Origin: Cyanobium sp. PCC 7001
GTDB taxonomy: Bacteria; Cyanobacteriota; Cyanobacteriia; PCC-6307; Cyanobiaceae
DNA: 64,000 nucleotides
Direction: 5' to 3'
NCBI RefSeq assembly: GCF_000155635.1
Contig: NZ_DS990556.1
Location: forward strand, 2,676,607-2,740,606
The first letter of the stretch is position 1; every line of letters starts with the position of its first letter. The notes under the pieces are model-generated. The model had not been told where the DNA came from, did no database searches, and saw nothing but the letters and a program-made list of their open reading frames with translations. Positions 44,712 through 63,619 of the stretch are shown one piece after another. The position numbers and the translations under genes are program-made.

Positions 44712-45038
44712 TCAGAAGCGGGACATGGCCTTCACCTTGGCCAGTTTGTCGGCTTCGAGGCCCTCCAGTTCCTCCATCGCCAGCAGCTCGTCCTTCACCA
44801 GCCCCGCGAGCACGAACAGGATGCCGCCGAGGCGGAAATCGAAACGCCCCTCCATCGTGTGCCGTTCGATGCTCAGGAAGTCGTGCAGCTGCCACACCTC
44901 GTCGGCGGAGGCGAGCGCCTCGATGCTGGTGCGCAGCCGTGCGATCAGGACGTCCACAGCTCGGGTTCTGGCGCGCTCGAGAGCAGCCCGCGCGATCACC
45001 TGTTCGCGGTCGGTCCAGCTGTCAACCATCGTGTCCAT
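44712..45038 (-). CDS. frp: Fluorescence recovery protein (FRP)
   Basis: FRP turns active red OCP back to its orange form and so ends phycobilisome quenching. The 108-residue product matches the family core: DEVWQLHDFLSIERHTMEGRFD (split here across residues 55-76) and the C-terminal LEADKLAKVKAMSRF. An in-frame ATG at 45062 would add eight residues; ATG 45038 matches the usual length of about 109. It is the last gene of the leftward ocp-crtW-frp set, 54 bp after crtW, which supports the assignment. Confidence 0.88.
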   Translation of the reverse strand: MDTMVDSWTDREQVIARAALERARTRAVDVLIARLRTSIEALASADEVWQLHDFLSIERHTMEGRFDFRLGGILFVLAGLVKDELLAMEELEGLEADKLAKVKAMSRF

Positions 45039-45092
45039 GGGCTGCGTGCCCCTCCATGTCATCCCCTCTCGAAACTAGGGGGAGGCCCAAGG

Positions 45093-45854
45093 TCAACGAG
45101 AGCGCGCTGTTGCGAATGTTGGCGGTGGCCCGTCCTGCCCGGCGCTGGCCACCATGCGGGGCAGGTCATACCAGGCCAGCTGGGGAGCCCGGTGGTGCTC
45201 CTGGTGGTAGCCGAAGTGGTAGCAGGCCAGCAGCGACAGCCAGGGCGGCAGCCGCAGGCTCTGAATGTGGTGCCGGCCATCGCCGGAGTGGCTGCAGCGG
45301 TGGGGCAGGTAGGTGCCGAAGGTGAACAGCTGGGCGGAACTGAGGATCAGGGGCAGGGTGCAGAACACCAGCACGTTGCCCCACCCCGCCGATGTCACCA
45401 GGCTCGCCGCGGCTGCCAGCAGGGTCCAGCCAGCGAGAAGGACTCCCATCTGCGCCAGGCTCAGATAGCCCGCCATGAAGCGGGCGTACCAGGCCAGCAC
45501 CCCGGCCCCTGGGTCTGGATGGACATCGGGATCGGCAGTGGTCGCCGGCGCCTGGTGGTGAATCCGATGGTTGCGCCGGCATTGCCGGTAAGGAAGGGCT
45601 GCGTACAGCCCCAGGGCCAGGGTGCCGATGCTGTCATTGAGACCCCTTTGCCGGGGAAGCAGCACACCGTGCATGGCGTCGTGGCCCACGATGAAGAGCC
45701 CGGTCTGCAGGAAGGTGCGCACCAGAACGGCCAGCACGATCAGGTGAGGAGAGAGCTGCTGCAACGGCTGCAGCAGCCCGGCCGTCAACGTGAGCAGCCA
45801 GCCCAGAACGATCCCGGTGGCCAGAATGATTCCGCGCCAGGGGGTTGCACTCAA
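45093..45854 (-). CDS. crtW: Beta-carotene ketolase CrtW
   Basis: Makes keto-carotenoids such as echinenone or canthaxanthin, the pigments bound by OCP. Histidine clusters of the membrane di-iron fold are present: HDAMHG, HRIHH and HQEHH, between four hydrophobic stretches. From TTG 45854 the product is 253 residues (SATPWRGIILATG near the start). The TTG overlaps the OCP stop (TTGA), so translation is probably coupled to ocp; the longer frame upstream is an ocp shadow. Confidence 0.93.
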   Translation of the reverse strand: MSATPWRGIILATGIVLGWLLTLTAGLLQPLQQLSPHLIVLAVLVRTFLQTGLFIVGHDAMHGVLLPRQRGLNDSIGTLALGLYAALPYRQCRRNHRIHHQAPATTADPDVHPDPGAGVLAWYARFMAGYLSLAQMGVLLAGWTLLAAAASLVTSAGWGNVLVFCTLPLILSSAQLFTFGTYLPHRCSHSGDGRHHIQSLRLPPWLSLLACYHFGYHQEHHRAPQLAWYDLPRMVASAGQDGPPPTFATARSR

Positions 45855-46804
45855 CGGCGAAACTTCAGCAGTTCGGCCGGGGAGGCGAGCAGGTCGATGG
45901 CCACGAAGTAGATCTTGCCGTCCGGATCGAGTAGGAAGCGCCAGGCCACATTCATGCCCACGCCAGCCCCGAACCAGGGGGTCTGCACCTTGCCGGTCAC
46001 CTTGATCTGGGTGAAGTTTCCTTCGGTAGGTTCGGCATAGCCCCGCTCCGGCAGCAGCCGGAGGTTCTGACAATCCTGACGGAAGAAATTCAGGATCGCA
46101 TCCTTGCCCACAATCGGCTTCTGGAAGGGAGGCTGCAGAGCGCCGTCGGGCAGGAACAGCTCAATGAGTTCATCGAAGTCATTGGCATTGAGCAGGTCCA
46201 TGTAGTTGTTCACCGTGGGGTTGATCACCCCCTCGATGAACACCTTGGTGCGCTTTTCCTCAGGAGTTGGCGCCACCACGGGCTCCATCACCTGCTGGCC
46301 CAGACCCTTGGCCGGGTCGAAGCCCATGTCTTCCACGAAGTTGCGCAGCAGCGTGATCTGCTGGCCCTGATCCACGGCCTTGAGGGAGTCGAGCACGGCC
46401 AGGGCATTGGCGGACAGCTGATAGCCTTCGGGGATCGGTGCCACGATGCCTTCGGCCATCCACTCGCCGAGCTGATACCAGAAGCCCAGCTTGATGTTCA
46501 CCGACCATTGGGCGTAGGTGCGGCAGATCTCGGAGTCGGTGCGGTTGGCCAGATCGCACATCACCTGGCTCTGCTCGGGAAAGCTCATCCCCCGGATCTG
46601 CTGGAGCACGCCCTCGGCAAACTGCATCCTGGCGGCACCCGGAGCGGCAATGGTGATGGTCTTGCCCATCTCCAGATAGGCAAACCAGATCAGGGCGAGT
46701 TGATCTTCGGCGCTCAGAAGCAGGAACCGTGCCGTGATGGCTGGAACCACATCAGCGCGGAGAGTTTCCGGGAAGATCTGGCTGGCTTTCTGGAGCGTGA
46801 ACAT
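45851..46804 (-). CDS. ocp: Orange carotenoid protein (OCP)
   Basis: Photoactive carotenoprotein that quenches phycobilisome excitation in strong light. Exactly 317 residues, the canonical OCP1 length. The N-terminal helical domain (LALIWFAYLEMGKTITIAAPG, CDLANRTDSEICRTYAQW) is joined to an NTF2-like domain (NNYMDLLNANDFDELIELF, GKVQTPWFGAGVGMN). Tyr201 and Trp288, which hold the carotenoid keto group, are both present; the interdomain Arg is Arg154 and its partner position 244 is Asp rather than Glu. ATG 46804 is chosen over an extra seven-residue lead. Confidence 0.97.
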   Translation of the reverse strand: MFTLQKASQIFPETLRADVVPAITARFLLLSAEDQLALIWFAYLEMGKTITIAAPGAARMQFAEGVLQQIRGMSFPEQSQVMCDLANRTDSEICRTYAQWSVNIKLGFWYQLGEWMAEGIVAPIPEGYQLSANALAVLDSLKAVDQGQQITLLRNFVEDMGFDPAKGLGQQVMEPVVAPTPEEKRTKVFIEGVINPTVNNYMDLLNANDFDELIELFLPDGALQPPFQKPIVGKDAILNFFRQDCQNLRLLPERGYAEPTEGNFTQIKVTGKVQTPWFGAGVGMNVAWRFLLDPDGKIYFVAIDLLASPAELLKFRR

Positions 46805-47020
46805 GGGCTGCTCTCGCAAGGGCAAATCAATAACGGTCTAGCCAGGCAAGGCAGCGCACTGACGAGGGATTCTCAATTCTTCAACAGACTGGCGTGGCTA
46901 TACCGTGCTGAGGGTGTCTCTGAGTAAGGTGCTGAATGGTAGCCAGAGGCTGGGGACGCCTGTGGGTATTCCGGTCTTCATCGTGGTCTGTGCGAGACGT
47001 CTGTGTGTGACGTCGGCGCG

Positions 47021-47487: not shown

Positions 47488-47534
47488 TGGAGCCAAGGAG
47501 ACTCGAACTCCTGACCCCCTGCATGCCATGCAAG
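47488..47534 (-). tRNA. tRNA-Ala(GGC) 3' half only, putative attachment-site scar
   Basis: On the minus strand the segment reads as the anticodon arm CTTGC-ATGGCAT-GCAGG (anticodon GGC), variable loop, T-arm AGGAG-TTCGAGT-CTCCT, acceptor 3' strand TGGCTCC and A. The matching 5' acceptor strand, D-arm and rest of the gene are absent from the sequence to the right. A tRNA half that ends near the anticodon loop is the classical product of integration by a tyrosine recombinase. It cannot make a functional tRNA. Confidence 0.8.
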
Positions 47535-48015
47535 AAAGATTTCTGCAACAAGCCTTCTGCTGCAGTGGCCTGAAGTTTTAAGTCCTCCTGGAGTGCGCAG
47601 AAATGTGCGCACTTTTGTCGTGGCACCTGTTCCAGTGAGCTGTCTCAATTGGGAGCTGGCTGCGGCAATCAGGCCCATCAGTGCTTTGCTGATGGCCTTC
47701 CGGCGGAAGCGGCCAGGCCCTTTCAATGGACGGCCTCCCACTGAGAGGCAGATCCTGTTGGCCTGCCCGGCTCCGCAAGCGCACCGGCTGGTGGCCCCTG
47801 GTGGGGTGGCGACGCTCGAAGCTCACCTCTGCGCCATGCCTAGCGGGTGGGAGTGATGGCAGCACCTCGGCGCACTGCTCCGAGCATCACAACCGCCTTT
47901 TGGAGCCGCCAAGGCCGTGTTCAAAATCCTCTTCACTGCCATTCGAGTTCAACAGGTCGCCAGGCGCCAAGAACCCAGTGTTTCTATGCGCGCGCGCGTG
48001 AAGTGCCGTGTGGAG
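47535..48015. other. Element left end without a convincing gene
   Basis: About 480 bp between the tRNA scar and the iteron-like repeats. Several overlapping frames of 80-115 codons are open on both strands, but none has a recognisable domain, plausible start or consistent composition. An alternating CGCGCGCG run lies at about 47,989-47,998. No integrase is visible here. Confidence 0.4.
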
Positions 48016-48202
48016 GTGTGCGGGCTACGAGACTCATTGCACTGGAAGGGTTAAGCCCGCACTCGGGGTGTGCGGGCTGGAAAGACGATTTGGCAGGGCG
48101 TTTCAGATCCCTTGCGGCGGAAGGGTTTAGCCTGCACAAAGCGGAAGACTGGAATCAGTAGCAAATGTTAAACCCTGTGCCTGGAACGGTTTAGCCCGCA
48201 CA
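48016..48202. repeat. Iteron-like repeat cluster
   Basis: Three direct copies of a roughly 20-bp unit close to GGAAGGGTTTAGCCCGCACA start at 48044, 48119 and 48183. Inverted half-copies GTGTGCGGGCT lie at 48016-48026 and 48068-48078, and a TAAACCCT half at 48169-48176. Copy one and the second half-copy form a perfect 9-bp inverted repeat (48054-48062 with 48070-48078). The array lies just past the end of the primase-helicase gene. Repeated Rep-type binding sites and an origin are the simplest reading. Confidence 0.7.
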
Positions 48203-48408: not shown

Positions 48409-50880
48409 TCAGAGGTCGTCCCAGATGGACGGGTTCGCTTCGCTCTGCCGGTCGGGATCGGCATCGAGGATGGCGCTCAGCACGGCGAAGCGGTTGGCCT
48501 TGGGCATCCTGTCGATCAGGCCTTCGCCCCTGAGTTCCTCGATCAGGTCATTGCGGCCGGCCCTCACCTTGATGGCATTGGGATGGCCGTGCCGTCCCAG
48601 AAAGCGGCGGAGGTCATCACGCTTCAGGCCCTGGTAGGGGCCCGGATTGGCCTTGGCCTTGTGGGCTTCGTAGTGCTCCTGCATGAAGCCGAGCAGCAGC
48701 CTGCGGGCTTCGTCCTGCTGGTCCTCGTCGTGGAGGGTCTTCACCTCGCCCATCTCGATGCTGTAGGGGATCTCGCGCTGCGGGCCAAGGCGGGACTTCT
48801 CGACAATGAAGAAGCGCTGGCCGTCGCGCACTTCCAGGCGGAACACACCGGCCGTGAGTTCGCTCAGGGCCGCAACGCCCTGGGCGTGGTCGGCACCTTT
48901 GGCGCTGTGGTGCACGATCAGCAAGGTGATGCCCTGGGCTGAGCAGAGGCGGATCAGCAGGTCGACGTAGTCGCTCACCACCTGCTCGCCGACACGGACG
49001 CCGGGCGGGAGGATGGTCTTGAGCGAGTCGATCACCAGCAGGTCGTAGGGTTCGCCTCGATCCCTGGCGGCATGGATGGTGTCCATCAGCCGCTTGAGGC
49101 CCGCCAGCGTCATGCGCCAGGAGCCAACGCCAGCGCTGATGCTCTCGAAGCGAACATCGACGTACTGCTGGGCCCACTCCTGGGTCAACATGCCGTGGCT
49201 GCGGGCGTAGTTGCGGATGTCGCGGGCCGCATCAGAGGCGCCATCGGAGGCGATGATCAGGGCGCGGCGGTGGCGGTAGTGGTTTGGACTCACGGCGCCG
49301 AAGTCCATGAACTGGGTGTAGCCGGGTGCTCCCAGCGCCGCCCTGGCGATGAACAGGGCCATGGTCGTCTTGCCGGCGCCGGCCTTGGCGTGAATCATGT
49401 AGGTGCGGCCCTGGTCCAGCAGGCCCGGGATCAGGGGGCGCGTCACCGTCTCGGGAATGTCGGCCAGCTTCACCACCGGGAAGGCGTGCTGATCCAGGCG
49501 CGGCAGGCCCTGGTCATCGGAGAAGAAGCGGAGCAGGGCCGCATCGATGCGCCACGGCTCGCGGTTGTAGAGGTTCCACTCGAAGAGGTTGCTGCGGTAG
49601 TCATCGATCAGCTGCTCGGCCTCTTGGGCGCTTACCTTGCGCTCGCCGCGATCGGTGACGTGCACCTGGTCCACCGTCAGGCGGTAGAGCCGCCAGAGCA
49701 TCAGGTGGGTAGGGCGGTCACCGGCTGAGCCGCCTGGCTGGGTGGAGCGGTCGTTCTTGAGCTTCTGCAGCTCTGAGGTCGAGATCGCATCAGGGGCCCG
49801 ATCGCCCATCAGGCTGCGGCCGCGGGGCCGTGGCTCCTGAGGTTCCGGCGCCGCGGGGCGGGGCATCGGGTCGGGTTCGCCCAGCACCGGCGCCTCCGGC
49901 GGCCGGGAGCTGTAGAAGCTGCGCGGCAGCTTGCGGGTGGGGCCGCCGCCTCCGCGCAGCTCCTCGGGCATCAGTCGCCACCAGCCCTTGCCGTGCTGCT
50001 CGGCCACCAGCTTGAGGATCTTGCCGGGGCCTGAGCGGCGGCCGCTCCTGGCCCAGCGGCCAGCACTCAGCTGCTGGGTCTTGCTGTGGTGGCAGCGGTC
50101 ATGCCAGAGCTGGAAGGCCAGCTTGACGTCCTCATCAGCTGCGCCGGCCGCGGCCTGGAAAACGCTGTGCCAGTACTCGTACTCGCCGTCCTCGCTGGGG
50201 CGGAGGATGCCGGGGGTGCGCAGGGCCCAGGCGGCGCGGGCGCAGTCGCGGCGGTGATCTTCGGGGCTGACGTCCACCTTGGCCGCGGCGGCCTCAGCCT
50301 CCTTGCGCTTGAGCAGCTCGCGGGCGTCTTCGGTGAACTCCCAGCCGAAGGGCTCGGCGTCGCCGTACTGCAAGTCAGCAGCGTCATTGCCGAACCAGAT
50401 CTGCAACGGCTTGGCGCCGCAGGCATCCCTGACCTTCAGGTCCAGGCGCTGCACCAGCAGCTCGGTGCGGGCGCGGTGCAGCTCCGGGTCGTCGATCGGC
50501 TCCGCGATGAACACCGCCCGGAAGCGGTGGGCGCTGGGGCTGCCGGTGCTCTGCTGCTTCTCGAGCGAGCCGTGGGACGGGGTGGTGTAGGTGAAGGCGC
50601 AGTGGCGCTGCACCATCGGGTGGGCCCACCAGTCCTCCAGATCGAGATCGCCGTCGATGTCGAGGGCCATCAGGTTGCTGCGCTGATAGTTCTCGTTGCA
50701 GCGCTCGCCCTGGAACTGGCAGCTCGTCCAGGCCTTGCCGGCCTTGATGTGGTTGACCAGCTCCTCTGGTGTGAGTTCTGCGGGGATCCAGGAGCAGCTG
50801 TTCTCCACCTCGGAGAACGCATCCTTGGGGGTCTTGTTGTGATGGCCCTGGTGCAGGGAGACGAGGAGTATCGGGGTCAT
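48409..50880 (-). CDS. Primase-helicase of a mobile element
   Basis: 823 residues. The N-terminal part carries archaeo-eukaryotic primase-like motifs: MALDIDGDLD (acidic pair Asp74/Asp76) and AHRFRAVFIAEPID (His118). A PriCT-like region follows (YWHSVFQAAAGAADEDVKLAF, near 235). A Pro-rich linker occupies about 320-390. The C-terminal half is a RepA/RecA-type ATPase with Walker A AKAGAGKTT (Lys504), Walker B LLVIDSLK and LLIVHHSAKG. Such fusions replicate plasmids, satellites and tRNA-integrated elements. ATG 50880 begins right at MTPILLVSLHQGHH. An iteron array lies downstream and a palindrome upstream. Confidence 0.8.
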   Translation of the reverse strand: MTPILLVSLHQGHHNKTPKDAFSEVENSCSWIPAELTPEELVNHIKAGKAWTSCQFQGERCNENYQRSNLMALDIDGDLDLEDWWAHPMVQRHCAFTYTTPSHGSLEKQQSTGSPSAHRFRAVFIAEPIDDPELHRARTELLVQRLDLKVRDACGAKPLQIWFGNDAADLQYGDAEPFGWEFTEDARELLKRKEAEAAAAKVDVSPEDHRRDCARAAWALRTPGILRPSEDGEYEYWHSVFQAAAGAADEDVKLAFQLWHDRCHHSKTQQLSAGRWARSGRRSGPGKILKLVAEQHGKGWWRLMPEELRGGGGPTRKLPRSFYSSRPPEAPVLGEPDPMPRPAAPEPQEPRPRGRSLMGDRAPDAISTSELQKLKNDRSTQPGGSAGDRPTHLMLWRLYRLTVDQVHVTDRGERKVSAQEAEQLIDDYRSNLFEWNLYNREPWRIDAALLRFFSDDQGLPRLDQHAFPVVKLADIPETVTRPLIPGLLDQGRTYMIHAKAGAGKTTMALFIARAALGAPGYTQFMDFGAVSPNHYRHRRALIIASDGASDAARDIRNYARSHGMLTQEWAQQYVDVRFESISAGVGSWRMTLAGLKRLMDTIHAARDRGEPYDLLVIDSLKTILPPGVRVGEQVVSDYVDLLIRLCSAQGITLLIVHHSAKGADHAQGVAALSELTAGVFRLEVRDGQRFFIVEKSRLGPQREIPYSIEMGEVKTLHDEDQQDEARRLLLGFMQEHYEAHKAKANPGPYQGLKRDDLRRFLGRHGHPNAIKVRAGRNDLIEELRGEGLIDRMPKANRFAVLSAILDADPDRQSEANPSIWDDL

Positions 50881-51103: not shown

Positions 51104-51724
51104 TCAGCACGGCGCTGCGGGCTGCTCCAGGAACAGCTGCCGCAGACGCTCCAGGCCGCGCTGGCGATCGCGGCTGACGGTCATGGGGCTGAGGCCAAGG
51201 AACTCGGCGGCCTGGCGCAGCGAGCGGCCGTCGAGCACGGTGAGGCGCAGGACGGCAGCCTGGCGCTGCGGCAGCGCCTTCAGCAGCTGGACGATCGGCT
51301 TCTCCGGTTCCAGCGCCGGCTGGATCGGGGCTGGGGCTGGCAGGCAGTCCAGCCAGCTGGGCGCAGGGCCAGAGTCGGAGTGGGCGCTGGTCGCCGGGGC
51401 GTCGAGGCTGAGGTGGCGCCAGGGGGCATGGCCTCGGGCCCGGGCCGGCAGCCGCACCATCAGAGCGCGATCGCGCAGGTGATGGCTCAAGGCGCCGTCG
51501 ATGCAGCGCTTGAGGTAGGCCGGTGCAGTGCGTTCCTCCCGCAGGCGGGCTGTGGCCTGCACCAGGGCAAGGCGGGCCACCTGGATGCAGTCGTCCTGCT
51601 CCAGCAGATCCGGCATGCGGTGGTGGAACCGCCGGGCCCTGGCATCGGCCAGGGGGAGGAAGCGGCGGATGAGGGCGTCACGGCTGTGGGCATCACGCCG
51701 TGAACGGGAGAGGAGGGGAGCCAT
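51104..51724 (-). CDS. Small sigma-70-family RNA polymerase sigma factor
   Basis: 206 residues from ATG 51724. Region 2 is recognisable as RRFLPLADARARRFHHRMPDL followed by LEQDDCIQVARLALVQATARL (the DL-Q core-binding helix). Region 4 is LPQRQAAVLRLTVLDGRSLRQ, then AAEFLGLSPMTVSRDRQRGLERLRQL, a helix-turn-helix for -35 recognition. Between them is a Pro/Ala-rich linker without region 3. This is not one of the housekeeping cyanobacterial group 1 or 2 factors. It may drive the element's own genes, several of which share an upstream box. Confidence 0.75.
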   Translation of the reverse strand: MAPLLSRSRRDAHSRDALIRRFLPLADARARRFHHRMPDLLEQDDCIQVARLALVQATARLREERTAPAYLKRCIDGALSHHLRDRALMVRLPARARGHAPWRHLSLDAPATSAHSDSGPAPSWLDCLPAPAPIQPALEPEKPIVQLLKALPQRQAAVLRLTVLDGRSLRQAAEFLGLSPMTVSRDRQRGLERLRQLFLEQPAAPC

Positions 51725-51835
51725 GGAAGGGGTGTCAAGGCGGTGCAAGACAGCCCCCGGGAAGAGTGCGGGGAGGGGTTGGGACGTTCCCGAATTGGGC
51801 TCCATACCCTCACCTGCAGGAGCACCAAGAAGGTG

Positions 51836-52483
51836 ATGGGACGACAACGACACGCCGCCAACCCAGCTGGCTGGAACGCCCTGATGGCCCAGGTGGCGAA
51901 CAACCGCTTCACGCACAGCTGGAACGATGCGGTGACGGACGGATTGATCGCTCCGGCTGAACGGTTGCTGCTGGGGCAGGCCGCTCAATCACGGGACACG
52001 CAGATGCGGCTGGCCCGTGCGGTGGAGGCCGATCTGGCCGCCCACGGCGGTGTGCTCTCCGCCGGCATGCAGCGGCTGCTGCAGGAGCATGTGGATCCGG
52101 CGGTGGATCTGGCGCGGCTGGACCGGGCCAGTGCCGTGATGGATGCCGCCGGCCTGCAGGGGGAGGAGAGGGTGGTGCAGCTGACCACGCTGCTGGCCCA
52201 GGGGAGGTACCGGCCCGGCCTGGTGGAGCGGGGCGATGTGGACGCCAGGCGGACGCGGCAGCTGCGCGAGGCGGTGCTGGCGGGCCAACCCCGGCGGGCG
52301 AGCACGGCGACGGGAGAGCTGGTGCGCCAGTACGGGTTGGGTTCACCGCTGGCGGCCTACGGCGCGGCTGGAGTGGCCGCGGCGGGGCTGCTGGCCGCGG
52401 CCGCGGCTCTGCATGAGGATGCGCCGCAGGCCCGAGCCGGGGAGCAACCCCCTGCTGCTCCAGGGGGGATGCCATGGGCATGA
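51836..52483 (+). CDS. Element-encoded protein with C-terminal hydrophobic segment, function unknown
   Basis: 215 residues from ATG 51836, divergent from the sigma factor gene (111 bp between starts). Mostly helical: NPAGWNALMAQVANNRFTHSW near the start, then repeated Ala/Leu-rich helices, and a C-terminal hydrophobic stretch AAGVAAAGLLAAAAAL. Ala content is high, but the charge pattern and the GGTG spaced before ATG support coding. No family recognised. The frame is open further upstream without a better start. Confidence 0.5.
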   Translation: MGRQRHAANPAGWNALMAQVANNRFTHSWNDAVTDGLIAPAERLLLGQAAQSRDTQMRLARAVEADLAAHGGVLSAGMQRLLQEHVDPAVDLARLDRASAVMDAAGLQGEERVVQLTTLLAQGRYRPGLVERGDVDARRTRQLREAVLAGQPRRASTATGELVRQYGLGSPLAAYGAAGVAAAGLLAAAAALHEDAPQARAGEQPPAAPGGMPWA

Positions 52484-53813: not shown

Positions 53814-53981
53814 TCAGGTTGTCGCTTCCAGCATCAGCCGCTCGCCATCGGTGGCCTGTCGGATCGCTCCTGCATCCCGCTCAAGAAGGAGCCGGATACG
53901 GAACTGATCGGGATCCAGCCCTGAGGCGGCCAACAGGGCGTGCTCGGAAAGGGCGCCACAGTCACCCAGCAGGTTGGAGAG
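53814..53981 (-). pseudogene. Orphan 3' end of an hsdS-like gene
   Basis: The minus strand encodes LSNLLGDCGALSEHALLAAS, GLDPDQFRIRLLLERDAGAI and RQATDGERLMLEATT, then a stop (53814). This aligns along its whole length with the C-terminal segment of HsdS at 55.06-55.21 kb (about three quarters of residues identical by eye). No start or upstream domains are present. The copy is separated from the intact hsdS by the Mrr gene, so it is a relic of gene insertion or allele exchange. Confidence 0.75.
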
Positions 53982-54077: not shown

Positions 54078-55004
54078 TTAGTCCTCGTCGCCAAAGTAGT
54101 CGGCATCGATCTTGCAGATCTTGATCACTTCCTTGGTCTGTATCCCCACGCCATGCTGGATCATCAGATCCGCGAGCTGTTCCCCGTCGATCAGGATGAG
54201 TCGCGGATCTGGGATGTTCCTGGCGAATTGCATGGCCGTGGCTGTGAAGCGGCTGGTGGTCACGAACACGCCCTTGCGGCAGCCGCTGGAGGTCATGGCG
54301 CCGACGAAAGCCTGGACCTTCTCGCTGGAGACTGAATGCTCTGAATAGCGTTTCGCCTGCATGTAGACCTGGTCGAGGCCCAGGTGATCTTCGTTGATCC
54401 TTCCATCGATGCCTCCGTCGGGGCCTCGCCCCACGCCCTGCATGGCTTGTCTGGAGCCGCCGCCATAGCCCATGGCTGCCATGAGATCGAGGACGAGGCC
54501 TTCAAAGCCATGGGGGTCCATCTTCTTCATCTGCTCGAGCAGGTCGGCAACCAGCTGCTCCTTGATGAGCTTGACGCCGGCGTCAATCAGGTCTTCCGGG
54601 GTGCTGTCTTCTGCGTTGACGGCAATGCTGGATTGCAATGCCGATTCCTGCTTGGCTTGCTTCTGTGCATGGTGGTCTTGCCACTCTTTGAATCCTTTGA
54701 GATCGGACACCTTGATGGGCCGATTCAGGGACAGCAGTGCTGAAGCATTCGGCCCCAGGGCAAAGTATCCGCGCTTTGGCCCAGTCAGCGCCCCGGCAAC
54801 ACGGAGATAGGACGACGCCCAGCCGATTCTTCCGCGAACAAGGCTCTTGCCGTTGCTTTCTTGCGTGATCGCAAGTTGCTCTTTGGTAATCCCTGTCTTC
54901 TCGACAACAGCGTCGATGGCGGCTCGACGTGGAAGCTCGCCATGCTCATGGAGAACCTCCAGCAGCGGTCTCAAGAACTGATGGAACTTGGGAATGTCGG
55001 TCAT
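54078..55004 (-). CDS. mrr: Mrr-type restriction endonuclease
   Basis: 308 residues. An N-terminal winged-helix Mrr_N domain (FLRPLLEVLHEHGELPRRAAID, then GRIGWASSYLRVAGALTGPKRG in outline) precedes the catalytic PD-(D/E)xK domain: MDPHGFEGLVLDLMAAMGYGG, then GPDGGIDGRI and VYMQAKRY, giving the Asp and Gln-x-Lys active site. The C-terminal FVTTSRFTATAMQFA is typical. Mrr enzymes cut modified DNA. It overlaps the hsdS stop by 4 bp (ATGA), so it is translated as part of the type I operon. Confidence 0.88.
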   Translation of the reverse strand: MTDIPKFHQFLRPLLEVLHEHGELPRRAAIDAVVEKTGITKEQLAITQESNGKSLVRGRIGWASSYLRVAGALTGPKRGYFALGPNASALLSLNRPIKVSDLKGFKEWQDHHAQKQAKQESALQSSIAVNAEDSTPEDLIDAGVKLIKEQLVADLLEQMKKMDPHGFEGLVLDLMAAMGYGGGSRQAMQGVGRGPDGGIDGRINEDHLGLDQVYMQAKRYSEHSVSSEKVQAFVGAMTSSGCRKGVFVTTSRFTATAMQFARNIPDPRLILIDGEQLADLMIQHGVGIQTKEVIKICKIDADYFGDED

Positions 55005-56644
55005 TTCCCTGTCGCCTGGTACCGCATGGATGAAGCAGTGTCGGAGCGGGAGGTGGTCGCTTCCAGCATCACCCGCTCGCCATCGGCAGCCCGCCGGATC
55101 GCTCCTGCGTCCTGTTCTCGGATGAGCTGGACACGGAACTGATCGGGATCCAGCTCTGAGGCGGCCAGCAGGGCCCGTTCACTGAGGGCACCGCATTCAC
55201 GCAGCAGGCCGCTCAGCAGATCGGGGGGCACAGGGGCGGCGGCCAGAGGGAGCTGATTCGGGTTGGCTGCAGCCTTGCACCGGCCGCGCCGCGAGGCTTT
55301 GCCCGCCGCGGCCTCCGCCTGCCGGGCTGCCCGGATCCGCTCCAGCAGCACACTGGCCGGTTCGTCGTTGGGGTCCTGGGGCACCAGCGCGCCGCGGAAG
55401 GCCTTGGCCAGGAGCGCTGGCGTGAGGCGATCGACGAGCTTGCGGGCGGCGCTTAGGCGGGATTCCAGTTGGTCGGCGAGTGTGAATAGGGCCTGAACTT
55501 GATGCACAATTTCAATTTGTTCTTCAATGGATGGCAAGGGAAAGAATATGTTTTTCAGGTCTGTGCCTGAGATGCCTTTTTGCCCGGCCGATGATTTAAC
55601 TAAGCCTTCTATGTGATCGCGAATCTCGACAGAGGAAAATGAGATTTCTACATAAGCAGGCAGTGCTCTGCTGGTGTCGCAGCGCACCCTGATCAACTTG
55701 TCTGGGTAAACATAAACGTCTGGGATACTGGTTGCATTCGCGCAGGCTCCAACAAACTCTAGTGTGCCATTGTATCTGGTGAAAATCAGATCTCCTGCTT
55801 CTAGCCTGAAAGCCGCGAGATCTTTGTCGCTTAGTTCGAGGTATCTGTGATCTGTCCAGTCAATGGTGCCAGGTCTTACGGCCCCGATCCTTAGTATTTT
55901 CACGCCTGGTGGATTAAGCGATGGCTTTGGAGACAGTCCATTCCGCATCTCATGTATGACTTCACCTAGGGGGATCTTTCTTGGCAGGCTCTCTATCCCC
56001 CTCGCCTCCCTCCACTCCCGCGTCAACTCCCCCGAGGTCGCCGCCGCCAGCACCGCCTGGCGAAAGCGCTTGAGGATCGCCGCCACGCCATCGAGCCGCT
56101 GGCGGCAGGCATCGACAGCAGCGAGAGTGGTGTCGAGCTTGGCGGTGATGCGTAGTTGTTCAGTTGTTGGGGCTATGGCTAAACACATAGCACTCAAGGT
56201 CTTCAAGTAAATACCCTTCTGTGCCGTTCCCTTAGCGTTATCCAGCATGTATTGCTGAGCCTCAGGGGATTCAAGTGCGTAGGCCAGGAAGGCGCTTGCA
56301 ATGCCTGTTGCAGGCCTAAGCACGGCCACACTTCTCTGAAGGGTCAATGAAGCCGCCCCTTTGGGCACAACTGCTGTCCTGCCAATTGCCCCAACAATTG
56401 TAAGCAGGACATCTCCTGCGGCGATGCAAGTCCTCCTATTCTCTCTTTCAAAATCTTCTAAGCTGACAAGCCTGTAATCGGCCTCATAGGATATATTCCG
56501 TCTCTCAATATTTCTAGCACTGAGCATTGGCAAGCCGCTAGTGCTTGCTTTTGGTGGATTGTGTGATCCGTCGACAACTTTGCTACAGATCTCTGAGATT
56601 GCGCCGACTGCCCACCCAACCGGCAACTCCCGTTCCTCCATCAA
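55001..56644 (-). CDS. hsdS: Type I restriction-modification specificity subunit
   Basis: 547 residues with two target-recognition domains (about 1-150 and 215-370), each followed by a conserved helical spacer (KLDTTLAAVDACRQRLDGVAA and HQVQALFTLADQLESRLSAARK with a RQAVLAAA/PALLAKAF pattern after each). They set the two halves of the recognition site. The DNA coding the two target domains is clearly AT-richer than its surroundings, as expected for swapped modules. A C-terminal 110-residue extension (ASRRGRCKAAANPNQLPLAA onward) is duplicated as a relic at 53.8 kb. It overlaps hsdM by 4 bp. Confidence 0.93.
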   Translation of the reverse strand: MMEERELPVGWAVGAISEICSKVVDGSHNPPKASTSGLPMLSARNIERRNISYEADYRLVSLEDFERENRRTCIAAGDVLLTIVGAIGRTAVVPKGAASLTLQRSVAVLRPATGIASAFLAYALESPEAQQYMLDNAKGTAQKGIYLKTLSAMCLAIAPTTEQLRITAKLDTTLAAVDACRQRLDGVAAILKRFRQAVLAAATSGELTREWREARGIESLPRKIPLGEVIHEMRNGLSPKPSLNPPGVKILRIGAVRPGTIDWTDHRYLELSDKDLAAFRLEAGDLIFTRYNGTLEFVGACANATSIPDVYVYPDKLIRVRCDTSRALPAYVEISFSSVEIRDHIEGLVKSSAGQKGISGTDLKNIFFPLPSIEEQIEIVHQVQALFTLADQLESRLSAARKLVDRLTPALLAKAFRGALVPQDPNDEPASVLLERIRAARQAEAAAGKASRRGRCKAAANPNQLPLAAAPVPPDLLSGLLRECGALSERALLAASELDPDQFRVQLIREQDAGAIRRAADGERVMLEATTSRSDTASSMRYQATGK

Positions 56645-58104
56645 ACCAACTCCTCTACTTCTTCCCCCAGCTCCGCCAGGATCGCCCGCAGATCCTCCAG
56701 CGCCCCTTCCAGCTCCACCATCGCCTCCTGGGCCAGCACTGCAGGCTCCGGCAGATCGGCGCCATCTTCAGCGGAGTCGTCCTTCAGCCAGGCCAGATCG
56801 AGGCTGTCGCCCCTCTCGGCAATCTCCTCGCGGCAGAAGCACTGCCAGCGGCCCTCGGGCCCGGTTGCTGTGCGAGGGGCCAACCCGAGCGGATCAGAGC
56901 CGTAAGCCTCCTCGAACACCGCGAAATGCTCGCGGGTGAGGGGGGTGCGCTTGCCAAAGGCCGGCATGTTGGCCCGCAGGTCATACACCCACACCGCCTT
57001 GGTGTTGCCCTTCGCGCTCGTGCCGCGGGAGAAGAAGAGCACGTTGGTCTTCACGCCCTGGGCGTAGAAGATGCCGGTGGGCAGGCGCAGGATCGTGTGC
57101 AGGTTGCACTTGTCCATCAGATCCGCCCGGATCTGCTTGCCCACGTTGCCCTCGAACAGCACGTTGTCGGGCAGCACCACCGCCGCCCGGCCGCCGGGCA
57201 CCAGGGCCCGGTAGATGTGCTGCAGAAAGCAGAACTGCTTGTTACTGGTGGGGAAGGTGAAGTCGTTGCGGCCGGGCAGGCCGCCACCCTTCTTGGTGCC
57301 GAAGGGTGGATTGGTGAGGATCAGGCTCGCCTTCGGTAGGCCCTCGCCGTCGCTGCTCATCGTGTCGCCATAGCGGATGCCGCCTTCGCCGCTCACCGAA
57401 TCGAGGCCGTGCAGCATCAGGTTCATCAGCGCCAGGCGGTGCGTGTCCTGCACGTGCTCCATGCCGTAGAACGTGCGCTGGTAGAAGCGCTGCTGCTGCG
57501 CCTCATCCAGCTCGCTGATGTCCTGATGCTCGCGGATCCAGCGCTGGGCGGCGATCAGAAAGCCACCCGTGCCGGCCGCGGGATCCTGGATCACATCCCC
57601 CAGCTGGGGCTGCATCACGGCCACCATCGCATCGATCAAAGGCCTCGGCGTGAAGTACTGGCCGGCGCCGGACTTCTTCTCCTCGGCGTTCTTCTGCAGC
57701 AGGCCCTCGTACAGATCCCCCAGCCCTTCCTGGCGGGCGCTGTACCAATCGAGCTTGTCGATCTCCTCCACCAGCTTGTTGAGGGTCACCGGCTTGCGGA
57801 TGAAGGAGCTGGCGTTGGCGAAGATCTCCTGCACCAGCGCCGAGCTGCCGCTGCTCGAACTGCCCAGCTCCAGCAGCAGCAGCTTGTAGTGCTCCAGCTG
57901 CTTGAGGCCCTGCCGCGTCTCCAGCTCGTCCCAGCGCCACTCCTCCGGGATCCCGGCCTCCGTGCCGGTCTCCTTGGCCATCTTCAGGAACAGCAGGTAG
58001 GTGAGCTCACTCACGTACTGGTGGTACGTGACACCGTCGTCCTTGAGGACGTTGCAGAGGTTCCAGAGCTTGGCGACGATGTCGCCGGTGGTGTGGCCCG
58101 CCAT
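56641..58104 (-). CDS. hsdM: Type I restriction-modification methyltransferase subunit
   Basis: N6-adenine methyltransferase of 487 residues. An N-terminal helical domain (KLWNLCNVLKDDGVTYHQYV) is followed by the SAM site DPAAGTGGFLIAA and the catalytic NPPFGTKKGG. The C-terminal tail is a charged helix ending EEVEELV that likely packs on HsdS. Its ATG shares a base with the upstream small gene's stop (TGATG) and its stop overlaps hsdS. Confidence 0.95.
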   Translation of the reverse strand: MAGHTTGDIVAKLWNLCNVLKDDGVTYHQYVSELTYLLFLKMAKETGTEAGIPEEWRWDELETRQGLKQLEHYKLLLLELGSSSSGSSALVQEIFANASSFIRKPVTLNKLVEEIDKLDWYSARQEGLGDLYEGLLQKNAEEKKSGAGQYFTPRPLIDAMVAVMQPQLGDVIQDPAAGTGGFLIAAQRWIREHQDISELDEAQQQRFYQRTFYGMEHVQDTHRLALMNLMLHGLDSVSGEGGIRYGDTMSSDGEGLPKASLILTNPPFGTKKGGGLPGRNDFTFPTSNKQFCFLQHIYRALVPGGRAAVVLPDNVLFEGNVGKQIRADLMDKCNLHTILRLPTGIFYAQGVKTNVLFFSRGTSAKGNTKAVWVYDLRANMPAFGKRTPLTREHFAVFEEAYGSDPLGLAPRTATGPEGRWQCFCREEIAERGDSLDLAWLKDDSAEDGADLPEPAVLAQEAMVELEGALEDLRAILAELGEEVEELV

Positions 58105-58297: not shown

Positions 58298-61200
58298 TCA
58301 GGCCGCCTCCCACACCGCTTCGTTGAAGCGCTGCAGCACCTGCTCCAGCTCGCCGCCGAACAGCTTGTTCAGCCGCGGCCAGCCGCCGCCCTCGCGGCGG
58401 AACAGCAGGGCGTCGTCATCGATCGCCTCCCGGTCCACGATCGTGATCGCCTTGGTCTGGTTGGCGATCCGTTGCAGCCACTGCCGCTGGGGTGCGGTCC
58501 AGTTCCGTGAGGCCAGGATCCGCTGCAGGGCGCGCTCCACCCGCTCTGCGTAGGGCACCAGCGGATCGCCCAGGGCGGCCTGGCGGATGTAGCCCATGAT
58601 CGAGGCGGCCATCTCCTGGTTGGTGGTGTGCCGCCATGCCGCGGCCAGGCTGGTTTCGCTGTAGCCCCGGGCATCGAGGGCCAGCTTCAGGGCGCGCAGA
58701 TCCTGGCGGCTGAGTTCCCAGGGGCGCTGCAGCACCGTGGTGAGGGCCGGCAGGTCGTTGCCGGCATCGCGGATGAAGGCGGTGAAGCCCTCCAGGTAGT
58801 CCTGCGGCCGCTGGCCCTCGCCGTAGGCCGGCTCCACGCCCAGCAGCTGATCCTCCTGGTCGGCCACGAACACCGGCTGGGGCGGCCCGCTCCAGCTCTG
58901 ATCCAGCAGCTCCCCCAGCCCCGGCAGCCGCCCGATCCACCCCGAGGCTTCGGTGATCGGCAGCGTGCGCAGCCGCTCCAGGAAGGCCTCGGGTTCCTCG
59001 CCCGTGAGCTCGCGGAAGTGGGCCTCGGCCTGCTCGGTGGCCCCGCTCAGCTTGCGGCGCAGCCTGGCGATCAGCTGATCGCGCACCAGCTCCCGCTCTC
59101 CTTCTCCGGGCGTTTCGATCAGCTCGCGCACCAGCTGGCTGAGGGGGATCTGGGGGTTCTGCACCACCGGCTTCATCGCGGTGTAGTCCTGCAGCGCCTC
59201 GTAGATGCCCACCGCATCGAAGATGCGGAAGAGGGTCTTGCCGATCTCCGGGCAGAGCCGGGTGGCCCGGCCGACCATCTGGTCGTAGAGGATGCGGCTG
59301 TTCATCCGCCGCAGGAACACGATCGTGCTGATCGCCGGCACATCCACGCCGGTGCTGAGCAGATCCACCGTGACGGCCACGTTGGGGCGCGCTTCGTTCT
59401 TGTAGCGGCGGATCAGCTGCTGAGGGCGGTCGCTGGCACCCGTGATCTTGGCTACCACGTCGTCGTCGATGTCGCCATAGCGCTCCTGCAGTGCCTGCTT
59501 GAGGAGATCCACCACCAGGTCGGCGTGGGCATCGCTGGCGCAGAAGATCAGGGTCTTGTGGGGGGAGAGCACATCGAGCTGATCCGCCAGGGCGCGGCAC
59601 ACCTCCCGGTTGAAGGGTTCGGTGAGCACCCGGCGGTTGAAGGCCTCCACCTCGAAATCGAGGGCATCGGGGGTGTGGAACAGGGCCATCTGGCCCGTCT
59701 GCGGATCCAGCACCGGCACCTGCTCCCCCGCCTGCCAGTGGATGCCGTCGCGGGAGAGTTCGGTGTGGATGCGCTGGGCGGGTTCGTGGTCCACCAGATA
59801 GCCGTCCACGACCGCCTCGCGGTAGCTGTAGACGAACACCGGCTCCCCGAAGATCTCCACGGTATGCAGGGCCGGGGTGGCGGTGAGGCCGATCTTCACC
59901 GCATCGAAGCGCTCCAGCACGCGGCGGTACTTGGACACGTAGTCGTTGAAGTCGCGGAAGCGCAGCTCCCGATCGCTCAGCTCCCGATCGAGCAGATAGC
60001 CCCGGTGGCATTCATCCACCACGATCAGGTCGTAGGTGTCCACTGTGGGCCTGGTGTCGTCGTCGCCCAGCAGCACCCGCTGCACCATCGCCTGCACGGT
60101 GGCGATGTGCACGCGGGTGTCGGATTCGGCCTCGCGCTCGCCCAGTTCCTTGATCCCGAAGATGTCGGCGAAGGTCTGCAGGCTCTCCATCCGCGTGTCT
60201 TTGAAGGCATCGGCGGCCTGGTTGCCCAGTTCGGAGCGATCCACCAGGAACAGCACCCGCCGGAAGCGGCCGGTTTTAAGCAGGCGGTAGATCAGGGCCA
60301 CGCAGGTCTTGGTCTTGCCGGTGCCGGTGGCCATGGCCACCAGCAGCTCCCGCTGTCCGGCGGCGATGGCCCCTTCCACGGCCTGGATGGCCCGCCGCTG
60401 GTACGGCCGCAGCCCGAAGCCGTAGGTGAAGGGCTCCCGTTGCAGCTGCGCATCGGCCTCGGCGGCGTTCTGGCGCGCCAGCTGGCTGAGTCCATCCGGG
60501 GAGTACCAGCCATCCAGGGGGCCGGCGAGGTTCTGGGCCCGGCGCAGATCGCGGAACCAGATGCCGCTGCCGGTGCGCAGCTGCGGCAGGAAGGGCCGGC
60601 CGTTGGTGGAGAAGGCGAAGGGCAAACGAAACTCACCCGTCGGCCCCCAGCCGCCGCTGCTGAGCTCGGCATCCCCGCTCGGCTGGAGGTCACGGCAGTA
60701 GCGCTCGGCCTGAGCCAGCACCCCGGCCACGTTCTTGTGGATGGCTTTGGCCTCCACCGCTGCCAGGGGCGTGAGCCCCGCGAACAGCACGTAGTCAGCG
60801 GGGCCGCTGCTGGTGGGCCATTCGGCAATGGCGAGGTTTCGGTTCTTCTGGGGCCGGGTGCCTTGGCTGTAGCGCAGCTGCTGGGTGTCGGCTTCCCATC
60901 CCACCGCGCGCAACTGTTCATCGATGAGCTGGCGGGTGGCGGCCTCATCGAGATGGATGGCCTGGGCCGCCTGCTGGGCCGCCTGCCGCAGCCCGGTCAT
61001 CACTGCCGGGGTCTGCTGGCTGGCGGCGTTCTGCAGCTCCTGCAGCCGCTCCGCCAGGGCCGCCTTGTCGGCCTCCACCTGCTCGGCCAGCTGCTCCCAC
61101 TGCTGCTGTTCCGCCAGCGCCGCCTGCAGCTGCTCCTCCATGGCCTTGAGCTGCTGGGCCTGGGCGGCGTCGTCGGCCTGAAACGCCGTCACGGCGGCCT

Positions 61201-61657
61201 GCAAAGCCGCTAGCTCCTGCCGCAGGGCCTCGCTTTCATCCAGCGGAGCCTGGGGCGGGCGGAATGGGCCGCTGCGGAACGCCGGATCCCCGAAAGTGCG
61301 GTGGAACCACAGCCCCAGCTGCCAGGCGATCTTGAGGTTGGAGAGGGCCATGGCATGGTCCCCGGCCAGGTCGTGGGCGGCGCGGTTGCCGCTGCGGCGC
61401 AGGTTGTGGAACAGATCCGCTACGTCCCGCTCGATCTGGCCGTCGAGCTGCAGGCGCCGGATCAGGGCCTGCTGGGTTTCCTCGAGGCCGCCGTAGACGC
61501 CAAAGCGGGAGGCCACTTCCTGGGCCAGCCGCTCCCCCAGCTGCCTGAGCTTGATCAGACAGGTGTTGGGATCCTCCGGGAAGTAGCGCTCGGCCAGCAC
61601 GCCCAGTCGGAACAGCTGTTCGTCGTAGGGGCGGAGGTGGAGGAAGTTGGTGCTCAT
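58298..61657 (-). CDS. hsdR: Type I restriction endonuclease/translocase subunit
   Basis: 1119 residues. The N-terminal 150 form a DUF4145-like domain (HNLRRSGNRAAHDLAGDHAMA), followed by a Gln/Ala-rich coiled coil (about 150-215). The nuclease core has PADYVLF and VEAKAIHKN (PD-ExK). The motor has ATGTGKTKTCVALIYRLLK (Walker A), VVDECHRGY (DEAD-like box), GLTATP and later VDLLSTGVDVPAISTIVFLR and GRATRLCPE. The C-terminal helical region binds the HsdM/HsdS core. First gene of the leftward hsdR-vapB-like-hsdM-hsdS-mrr set. Confidence 0.95.
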   Translation of the reverse strand: MSTNFLHLRPYDEQLFRLGVLAERYFPEDPNTCLIKLRQLGERLAQEVASRFGVYGGLEETQQALIRRLQLDGQIERDVADLFHNLRRSGNRAAHDLAGDHAMALSNLKIAWQLGLWFHRTFGDPAFRSGPFRPPQAPLDESEALRQELAALQAAVTAFQADDAAQAQQLKAMEEQLQAALAEQQQWEQLAEQVEADKAALAERLQELQNAASQQTPAVMTGLRQAAQQAAQAIHLDEAATRQLIDEQLRAVGWEADTQQLRYSQGTRPQKNRNLAIAEWPTSSGPADYVLFAGLTPLAAVEAKAIHKNVAGVLAQAERYCRDLQPSGDAELSSGGWGPTGEFRLPFAFSTNGRPFLPQLRTGSGIWFRDLRRAQNLAGPLDGWYSPDGLSQLARQNAAEADAQLQREPFTYGFGLRPYQRRAIQAVEGAIAAGQRELLVAMATGTGKTKTCVALIYRLLKTGRFRRVLFLVDRSELGNQAADAFKDTRMESLQTFADIFGIKELGEREAESDTRVHIATVQAMVQRVLLGDDDTRPTVDTYDLIVVDECHRGYLLDRELSDRELRFRDFNDYVSKYRRVLERFDAVKIGLTATPALHTVEIFGEPVFVYSYREAVVDGYLVDHEPAQRIHTELSRDGIHWQAGEQVPVLDPQTGQMALFHTPDALDFEVEAFNRRVLTEPFNREVCRALADQLDVLSPHKTLIFCASDAHADLVVDLLKQALQERYGDIDDDVVAKITGASDRPQQLIRRYKNEARPNVAVTVDLLSTGVDVPAISTIVFLRRMNSRILYDQMVGRATRLCPEIGKTLFRIFDAVGIYEALQDYTAMKPVVQNPQIPLSQLVRELIETPGEGERELVRDQLIARLRRKLSGATEQAEAHFRELTGEEPEAFLERLRTLPITEASGWIGRLPGLGELLDQSWSGPPQPVFVADQEDQLLGVEPAYGEGQRPQDYLEGFTAFIRDAGNDLPALTTVLQRPWELSRQDLRALKLALDARGYSETSLAAAWRHTTNQEMAASIMGYIRQAALGDPLVPYAERVERALQRILASRNWTAPQRQWLQRIANQTKAITIVDREAIDDDALLFRREGGGWPRLNKLFGGELEQVLQRFNEAVWEAA

Positions 61658-61924: not shown

Positions 61925-62482
61925 TCAACCGTAGGTGGGTCGCGAGCTCTGCGCCGAGGCGCTGTGCAGACCCATCCGTTTCAGGCGTTGGCGCTCACCA
62001 AGGATGCGCAGAATGGGAGTCCTGTCCAGAATCTTGCCATCACTTCCCCGGCTGTCACTGACATAGACTTCCACACTTCTCTGGTCACCGAAGGGCTGGT
62101 AGTGCGCCAGGCTAAATGCGTTGAACAATGGGTAGTACAAGCCGTGGGCCAGGACAAAGTTGTCATCCATGGTGAGCAGCCAGAATGGAACCTCCTGCCA
62201 CCAATTCATTTCATGCTGAAAACGCAGTGTATCCGGCGGCAGGAAAAAGCCAGGATCATCTTGTTGGAAGAGGCTCAGTCCTGCAAAAGAGCTCTGTGTT
62301 TCGTCTGATACAGTCTCTTCGCTGGTATATGCTCCTCTCTCGTAAATCACCATCAGCTTTGGATGGCCATTTAGGAACTGCTGCCGGAGCCTCTCTGCGG
62401 GGTCGCCGAGCATCTGCGTGGCAACAGTGAAGAGGCGTTGCACTCCTTCCGGAAGGGATTCTTGTGTATTGGGCTGGGTCAT
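61925..62482 (-). CDS. Hypothetical soluble protein
   Basis: 185 residues. Mixed alpha/beta composition with an aromatic middle (FQHEMNWWQEVPFWLLTMDD, then FVLAHGLYYPLFNAFSLAHY) and a final basic stretch (RTPILRILGERQRLKRMG). No signal peptide or membrane span. ATG 62482 is chosen as the only plausible start. AT-richer than the backbone, like its neighbour on the other side. Not recognised. Confidence 0.6.
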   Translation of the reverse strand: MTQPNTQESLPEGVQRLFTVATQMLGDPAERLRQQFLNGHPKLMVIYERGAYTSEETVSDETQSSFAGLSLFQQDDPGFFLPPDTLRFQHEMNWWQEVPFWLLTMDDNFVLAHGLYYPLFNAFSLAHYQPFGDQRSVEVYVSDSRGSDGKILDRTPILRILGERQRLKRMGLHSASAQSSRPTYG

Positions 62483-62710: not shown

Positions 62711-63619
62711 ATGTCGTCTGTAGAAGCAGCCAGGCAGCCCAATTCTGTCCTGGAGATTCAGAGAATTTCCGGTATTCAGCGAGCCATGTCACATGAACTT
62801 GTTGCGTCCTCAGGCATGGACGCAGATCTGCAGAGGGCAATGGATAATGCAGTTCTGATGGCGGGGAAGATCACGTGTAAGCGCGATCATGGCTGGTACA
62901 CGGTGCTGACAATTCTCACTGATCACAGAATCGCTCGTGAGGTGGCGTACTGGGATGACAGTGCGATTGCCGCGAGCCTTGACCGGTACGGCGTCGGTGA
63001 TACGATCTTGTGCGAGGTTTATCCATACTTGAATCCTAAGTATCCTGACTGGAAGGTCTGGGACCTTCTCGAGTTTGACGAGCAAACATCTCGGCGTCTT
63101 GCGGAGCGTGTTTTCAGGGCTGATCAGTCGGCCCGATCTTTGCGTCAACAATTTGATGCATTGACAGGCGAGGTGACTCACATTCGTGAGCTCAGCAATG
63201 CGATTGGTCATGCCAAGCACATCGAGCAGCAGGCCAACGGTCTCATGGCAATAGCCGGCGCCTCGCTTCTGGTGGCTGGCTTGCCGTTGGCCTTGTCAAT
63301 TGGCGGAATGGCAGTTGCCCTGCCGGCCGCCGGTGTTCTTTGCCTTTGCGCTTCACGCCAGCAAACTCAATCTACTTCGGCCACAACGCTGAATCAGCGC
63401 ATGAGTGAGTTTACTGGACGTCGCAGTGAAATTCGAGTGCTGGCGAATAGGACGCTCAACGACCTGCAACAGATTGAGGGGTTGGTCAAGCGTGGCAAAC
63501 TACAACCGTGGAAACGGCCTACGAATGAGGACTATCGGATCTTTTTTCCGCCGGCGTTGGCCATGGTTGAAACAATCGCAAAGAATGAAAGGAGTCTGAG
63601 ATTGCCGTATCACAGCTAG
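62711..63619 (+). CDS. Hypothetical membrane protein with central hydrophobic hairpin
   Basis: 302 residues. An N-terminal soluble domain (HGWYTVLTILTDHRIAREVA, GVGDTILCEVYPYLNPKYPDW) is followed by a charged helix (about 130-180), a hydrophobic hairpin (ANGLMAIAGASLLVAGLPLA, LSIGGMAVALPAAGVLCLC) and a second helical region with RMSEFTGRRSEIRVLANRTL. The plan, soluble head, coiled coil, two spans and coiled coil, recalls membrane-associated effectors, but no family is recognised. Codon use is less GC-biased than in the backbone. ATG 62711 chosen. Confidence 0.6.
   Translation: MSSVEAARQPNSVLEIQRISGIQRAMSHELVASSGMDADLQRAMDNAVLMAGKITCKRDHGWYTVLTILTDHRIAREVAYWDDSAIAASLDRYGVGDTILCEVYPYLNPKYPDWKVWDLLEFDEQTSRRLAERVFRADQSARSLRQQFDALTGEVTHIRELSNAIGHAKHIEQQANGLMAIAGASLLVAGLPLALSIGGMAVALPAAGVLCLCASRQQTQSTSATTLNQRMSEFTGRRSEIRVLANRTLNDLQQIEGLVKRGKLQPWKRPTNEDYRIFFPPALAMVETIAKNERSLRLPYHS

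Follow-up and report, generated by a model that had tools for sequence, protein, structure and literature searches.

The 64-kb window analysed here (contig 2676607–2740606 of a 2.83-Mb Cyanobium genome, G000 in our set) contains one half of a tRNA gene, which a first-pass annotation read as the left end of an integrated element. The locus raises the question of where such an element ends, what moved it and how it was assembled.

The half tRNA gene, its intact counterpart and an integrase

The 47-nt string at 47488–47534 on the minus strand corresponds to positions 27 to 73 of tRNA-Ala(GGC). It occurs once in the 64-kb window, and none of 100 dinucleotide shuffles contained a match to it at three or fewer mismatches. 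The 5′ half is absent, as the annotation had noted: the D-arm and the 5′ acceptor strand are missing, and ARAGORN found no complete tRNA in the window. Compared with the intact gene described below, the half gene has a T in place of C at position 28 but agrees with it at position 27. All five pairs of the anticodon arm are possible, one of them being a G-U wobble, so the earlier description of this arm as perfect was slightly too strong.

A full minus-strand tRNA-Ala(GGC) had been predicted beyond 64 kb. ARAGORN located it 12.2 kb past the window end, in the same orientation as the half gene (contig 2752829–2752902, minus strand; window-equivalent 76223–76296; L009:12830–12903). No second intact tRNA-Ala(GGC) was found in the whole 2.83-Mb genome, where the other match, at 1634820, is 81% identical. 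The proposed search to the right of the window for a repeat of 47488–47534 thus succeeded, but the exact repeat is 45 bp long: minus-strand 47488–47532, tRNA positions 29–73, is identical to the intact gene. This segment is the distal attachment-site copy and the left end of the island, and the two cores lie 28,736 bp apart, delimiting a 28.7-kb interval.

Just inside the 3′ end of the intact tRNA, with its start 120 bp away, lies an integrase gene on the strand of the tRNA (L009:11441–12709, minus; 422 aa; PHROG_1 integrase, E 1.2e-14). On the outer side of the tRNA are genes that we take, from their translations, to be lexA, argF and ftsH. The situation that the annotation had named as contrary to its reading, an intact gene elsewhere with nothing element-like adjoining it, was therefore not found, and the half gene holds as the left end of an integrated element, given the intact tRNA, the 45-bp repeat and the integrase. 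In six aligned integrases R252, K272, Y356-x-x-R359, H385 and Y394 are invariant; we take these to be the catalytic R, K, [H/Y]-x-x-R, H and Y of tyrosine recombinases, with a tyrosine presumably occupying the first catalytic histidine position in the integrase studied here. This integrase scored 16.1 bits against Pfam PF00589 and that of the relative G147 scored 23.9, both below the curated cut-off of 27.1 bits, which is a curator's threshold and not a defining trait, so membership among the tyrosine recombinases is based on PHROG_1 and the residues. No PF00589 match was listed for the integrase of G165, and a sequence search of the PDB with the integrase gave no match. In how it works as in what it is, the island belongs to a known kind, the tRNA-targeted genomic islands that a tyrosine recombinase mobilises.

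We are confident that a 28.7-kb element integrated at the anticodon arm of tRNA-Ala(GGC) by means of a tyrosine integrase, that the half gene is its left scar and that the island is composite. We propose that the integrase opened the tRNA-Ala(GGC) gene within its anticodon arm and inserted an element in circular form. The copy of the tRNA 3′ part that this element carries, its attachment core, would have restored a complete tRNA gene on the right, while the 3′ part of the host gene would have been moved 28.7 kb away, to persist as the half gene at 47488. For core binding the integrase would probably use the inverted repeat of the anticodon stem, and the paired repeats of 12-bp period just inside both ends would probably serve it as arm sites. 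The island may still be able to excise today.

Island genes and composite structure

The switch in gene content that the first-pass annotation saw at the half gene stands: a helicase/primase-like gene, a sigma factor and restriction genes lie to its right, and a photoprotection cluster, as we read it, to its left. Inside the left end, three iteron-like repeats GGAASGGTTWAGCCYGCAC, spaced 75 and 64 bp, and a 9-bp hairpin form a candidate replication origin at 48044–48201 (plus strand). These are the only three matches to the repeat in the genome at two or fewer mismatches; the fold of the segment is not unusual, 19 of 200 shuffles being as good. The adjacent minus-strand gene at 48409–50880 encodes an 823-aa replication protein that has a helicase-type AAA_25 domain (PF13481, E 1.5e-13) and a putative N-terminal primase-like domain, judged from motifs that we take to be those of a primase. 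A PDB sequence search with this protein gave no match, and its structure prediction from a 3-sequence alignment (mean pLDDT 42) was too poor for use.

Also on the minus strand are a sigma-70 family sigma factor (51104–51988; TIGR02937, scoring 69.8 bits where the cut-off is 42.9) and, from family scans, an Mrr-like type IV restriction enzyme (54078–55004) and the type I specificity subunit HsdS (55001–56644), methyltransferase HsdM (56641–58104) and restriction subunit HsdR (58298–61657). The Mrr gene lies between two direct copies of the HsdS 3′ part that are 82% identical (53816–53973 and 55051–55208), just as the copper half described below lies between copies of the integrase 3′ end. Two further proteins belong to no known family: for one of 185 aa (61925–62482, minus strand) the family scans were empty, as they were for one of 302 aa (62711–63619, plus strand), for which Pfam gave only E values above 0.1. 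Past the window, a remnant of an integrase 3′ end is followed, in order, by a FitA-type antitoxin, a PIN toxin, a small protein that we read from its translation as a membrane protein, a DUF305/CopM protein, a MerR regulator, a TPR protein, a P-type ATPase, a cupredoxin, a multicopper oxidase, a DUF411 protein, a glutaredoxin/MauE protein and then the integrase. Such a set probably handles copper.

Parts of the left half recur in relatives. Homologues of the 823-aa protein were found at 1e-10 in 5 of 151 family genomes, this one included, two of them over the helicase part only. The homologue in G096 adjoins an integrase of the same superfamily and a tRNA-Val(TAC), and that in G006 lies about 16 kb from such an integrase; no tRNA-Val fragment was found in either stretch. 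In both genomes a weak homologue of the 185-aa protein stands beside the replication protein (tblastn E 1e-7 to 1e-6; 24–28% identity in alignment A4), and G006 also has a sigma factor homologue that is 63% identical. G006 has ATCGCGCCC in triplicate past its replication gene, with spacings of 77 and 66 bp that come close to those found here (75 and 64 bp); a tripled 9-mer appeared in 3 of 1000 shuffles. The iterons of the island are looser than the G006 copies, with no exact 8-mer common to all three. These comparisons suggest that a replication module may be shared.

The two halves of the island, replication/restriction and toxin–antitoxin/copper, are divided by a 209-bp direct repeat of 96% identity (64149–64357 and 74757–74965). 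The repeat includes the integrase 3′ remnant (contig 2740835–2740966; residues 379–422 at 91%) and continues for another 77 bp beyond the stop codon of the integrase; from there on the two cargoes are different. Two tRNA-Ala fragments stand in tandem downstream of the intact gene in G147, G162, G029 and Synechococcus AG-670-B23, so stacking at tRNA-Ala happens. We consider that the composite island probably arose from two related elements that stacked at one tRNA and were fused by deletion. In the order of events that we envisage, elements with near-identical integrase 3′ ends, one bringing the replication and restriction genes and the other the toxin–antitoxin and copper genes, would have come to lie side by side, and the fusing deletion would have removed the 5′ part of one integrase together with the inner attachment site and its tRNA fragment.

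A different history is conceivable, though less likely: a single element entered, and a later recombination, homologous or illegitimate, added the copper/toxin–antitoxin half and in doing so duplicated the integrase 3′ end. Consistent with this, there is only one intact copy of this integrase, the copper half is flanked by the 209-bp repeat, a similar 3′-end repeat, that of HsdS, flanks the Mrr gene, and BLAST found no inner tRNA-Ala fragment near the 64.3-kb junction, where the tandem model predicts an inner attachment site. The tandem fragments in the four relatives argue for stacking instead, as does the repeat itself, which includes 77 bp beyond the integrase stop and then gives way to different cargo, as expected of two related elements.

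tRNA-Ala(GGC) as an insertion site in picocyanobacteria

Searches of two overlapping sets of 60 and 151 genomes gave tRNA-Ala 3′ fragments, of which at least 11, a lower bound, were read in at least 8 genomes (G000, G007, G024, G029, G033, G147, G162 and G165). All 11 fragments read begin, among the matches listed, at tRNA position 27–32. The count leaves out a G011 match at a contig end (positions 43–74), a G145 match of 87% over positions 11–73 about 45 kb from its intact gene, and rows of 85% over positions 8–74, taken as other tRNA genes. Integrases of this family accompany the fragments in five of the eight genomes listed (G000, G007, G147, G162 and G165); none of this clade was found in the fragment-bearing stretches of G024, G029 and G033. 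In alignment A3, which comprises 18 copies (2 intact genes and 16 fragments, the one in L110 being called a whole tRNA by ARAGORN), the sequence is nearly invariant from tRNA position 31–32 onwards, and it is in the 5′ strand of the anticodon stem that the copies differ. This pattern agrees with an exchange located in the anticodon loop, where TGCATG and CATGCA stand as inverted repeats on either side. The anticodon loop is one of the subsites tabulated in PMC4383910, and it is discussed in PMC8371274.

Six such integrases, used as queries, led to 15 loci in named genomes of Cyanobium, Synechococcus, Aphanothece, Vulcanococcus and Prochlorococcus, two of them apparently from genomes already in the set (G145 and G036). 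At 11 of the 15 the integrase match starts less than 200 bp from tRNA-Ala(GGC) or its 3′ part; at the other four (L109, L111, L113 and L120) no tRNA-Ala copy was found beside the integrase. In L114 the match of a second fragment begins as early as tRNA position 21, and on a Prochlorococcus contig (L122) a piece of the same integrase family lies beside tRNA-Ala. In a tree of 33 integrases, built without L122 (about 110 residues read) and G007 (integrase in two pieces), all 16 tRNA-Ala-labelled rows fall with four unlabelled ones on one side of a 100/100 branch, a clustering that is partly due to selection because many of these rows were found with a tRNA-Ala query. Nine rows lie beside tRNA-Val(TAC), tRNA-Pro(TGG) or tRNA-Arg(TCT), with neither the Val rows nor the Arg rows forming one group, and eight rows in all are unlabelled. 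The integrase is on the strand of the core in 6 of 16 cases and on the opposite strand in 10, with at least four changes on the tree. We conclude that tRNA-Ala(GGC) is a repeatedly used insertion site across relatives in Cyanobium, Synechococcus and Prochlorococcus.

Some loci show other arrangements. L098 (G148; 1143–1216 and 5280–5321) carries a 5′ tRNA-Ala fragment (positions 1–42) 4 kb upstream of the intact gene, with an integrase fragment between them, a mirror-image kind of insertion. In L116 (3852–6736) and L092 (11133–13181), integrase genes or pieces lie on both sides of one tRNA-Ala fragment and face apart. The genome studied here has another integrase of the superfamily, beside tRNA-Arg(TCT) (contig 1342950–1343423; L090), which possibly marks a second island.

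Next, the stretches downstream of tRNA-Ala(GGC) were compared in 18 relatives. The tRNA end carries lexA in 14 of them, and an integrase of this family is present in one (G007). G006 has lexA and the tRNA followed, about 2.3 kb on, by DNA matching window 44148–40001 (a cNMP-type gene, pdxH and others); neither an integrase nor a tRNA fragment lies between these flanks of the island. The comparison with an empty site that the first-pass annotation had proposed is thus answered in part: G006 has the flanks without the island, but the 2.3 kb of other genes means that this is not a clean empty site, and none of the relatives was found to lack precisely this island and nothing more. In G002 the tRNA is followed by DNA 76% identical to 66964–65310 (MerR, CopM and a neighbour), then by a 256-bp piece 79% identical to HsdR DNA at 60964–60710, and then by the left flank known from this genome; one 82-bp match to 67043–67123 lies out of order and inverted within that flank. 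On this sequence evidence we read the G002 locus as a shortened, collinear relic of the island. If that is right, the composite would already have existed before G000 and G002 diverged, and we may be dealing with an old island instead of one that is freshly mobile.

The left flank itself holds, at window 44712–46825, genes that we read from their translations as OCP, ketolase and FRP; these photoprotection names are our presumption, and two of the proteins have no NCBIfam match. The three genes are together in all 11 loci of the genus. Among the 11 genus genomes with OCP, G000 and G002 are the two in which the cluster neighbours the tRNA-Ala site; in the other nine it lies on another contig (seven) or more than 450 kb from the tRNA (two). 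The OCP cluster may itself have moved to this site.

Paired repeats at the island ends and comparison with known systems

A GTGCGCA pair of period 12 at 47593–47611 (plus strand) is a candidate arm site for the integrase and has its partner at window-equivalent 76122–76140. The pattern GTGCGCA-N5-GTGCGCA has three matches in the 2.83-Mb genome, of which two lie just within the two ends of the island, one 60 bp from the left core and the other about 80 bp from the tRNA. The third is upstream of a small ORF elsewhere, whose translation looks to us like an antitoxin, and the pair could alternatively be a regulator site. Among the 15 pairs of element ends read, 10 have an exact string of at least 11 bases in common, compared with 6 of 208 mismatched pairs; the latter set excludes two comparisons of G147e1 with G162e1, which are like elements. 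In a permutation test, none of 10000 permutations reached the observed matched mean. No common arm-like repeat was found in the remaining five pairs (G162e2, AG311, G033, G024 and AG673F03). For 20 of the 30 ends the best tandem repeat, in a search over periods 10–14 only, has period 12 and a single-base-shuffle frequency below 0.05. The end motif often differs between elements with the same core; G147e1 and G162e1 have one in common, and TTCTGCGCA-like strings are common to G147e2, G000 and AG673F03. We interpret the paired repeats as putative integrase arm sites. They are the most interesting part of the island, and, if they are arm sites, they allow the ends of stacked islands to be paired from sequence only and provide a testable model of how neighbours avoid cross-excision.

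One tentative extension, which we offer as speculation, is that each element's own arm repeat of 12-bp period acts as a lock-and-key code, by which stacked elements would excise singly and an integrase would spare its neighbour. If so, two neighbours with the same code would be unstable and collapse by deletion, as we propose for this window. In the three stacked arrays in which both elements are matched (G147, G029 and AG-670-B23), the motifs of the neighbours differ in all three, which proves little because most unrelated pairs differ too and motifs are shared across some genomes.

With these data, two other origins of the half gene and its surroundings can be weighed. A bare tRNA fragment can come from erosion or duplication, and the half gene might be a decayed pseudogene or duplicate unrelated to any integrated element. 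That no excised circle has been observed would agree with this, as would the three relatives (G024, G029 and G033) whose fragments have no detected integrase of the clade. Against it, 45 bp are unchanged and on the strand of the intact gene, the integrase adjoins that gene, island content lies between the copies, all 11 fragments read start at tRNA positions 27–32 among the matches listed, and arm-like repeats match at both ends; we give the pseudogene origin almost no credence. The element could also be a reduced integrative conjugative element or prophage, since both kinds carry an integrase and a replication protein. We judge this improbable. The scans, which cover part of the island ORFs, found no relaxase, type IV secretion or virion family in 20 translations (Pfam) and no such family in 7 (PHROGs), with no virion or packaging gene among them. 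No phage record matched a 1.6-kb stretch at the left end, the replication protein had no match in viral contigs (a single-sequence query that detects close relatives only), and the integrase alignment gave one partial match there, at 35%.

Integrases of the Tn916, L5 and lambda types use attachment sites with a core and, on both sides of it, paired direct repeats that serve as arm sites. The ends described here resemble these sites in having a core and paired direct repeats, about 45–125 bp from the core, but differ in that the arm-like motifs often change between elements with one core sequence. Our literature search found no paper on integration at the tRNA-Ala anticodon in Synechococcus, and the word 'integrase' is absent from the available text of PMC7522525, which belongs to the literature on Cyanobium genomic islands. 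In the literature surveyed, some of it available in part, we found no description of this island, its composite build or its matched arm-like repeats, which may nevertheless be in print.

A close general counterpart is the tRNA island as catalogued by Islander (PMC4383910): an intact tDNA closes one end, a displaced 3′ fragment with matching orientation closes the other, and an integrase lies between them. According to that paper, 3760 of 3919 such islands have a 3′ fragment and 2083 of 3919 an anticodon-centred crossover. The present island differs in being a composite of two halves, and its integrase falls below the PF00589 cut-off, whereas Islander, as described there, finds integrases with PF00589; island finders that rely on this family may miss the present integrase group. 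Tycheposons of Prochlorococcus, which are quoted in PMC10872708 and PMC11389934 and whose original list names seven tRNA genes, have, as quoted in the former, a tRNA at the border, a tyrosine recombinase and 4–200 kb of cargo. The island shares with them, so far as quoted, a picocyanobacterial host, the tRNA border, a tyrosine recombinase and, at 28.7 kb, a size within 4–200 kb, but unlike theirs its cargo is restriction and copper handling and not nitrogen. The exact ends are now fixed for a picocyanobacterial island with restriction and probable copper-handling genes.
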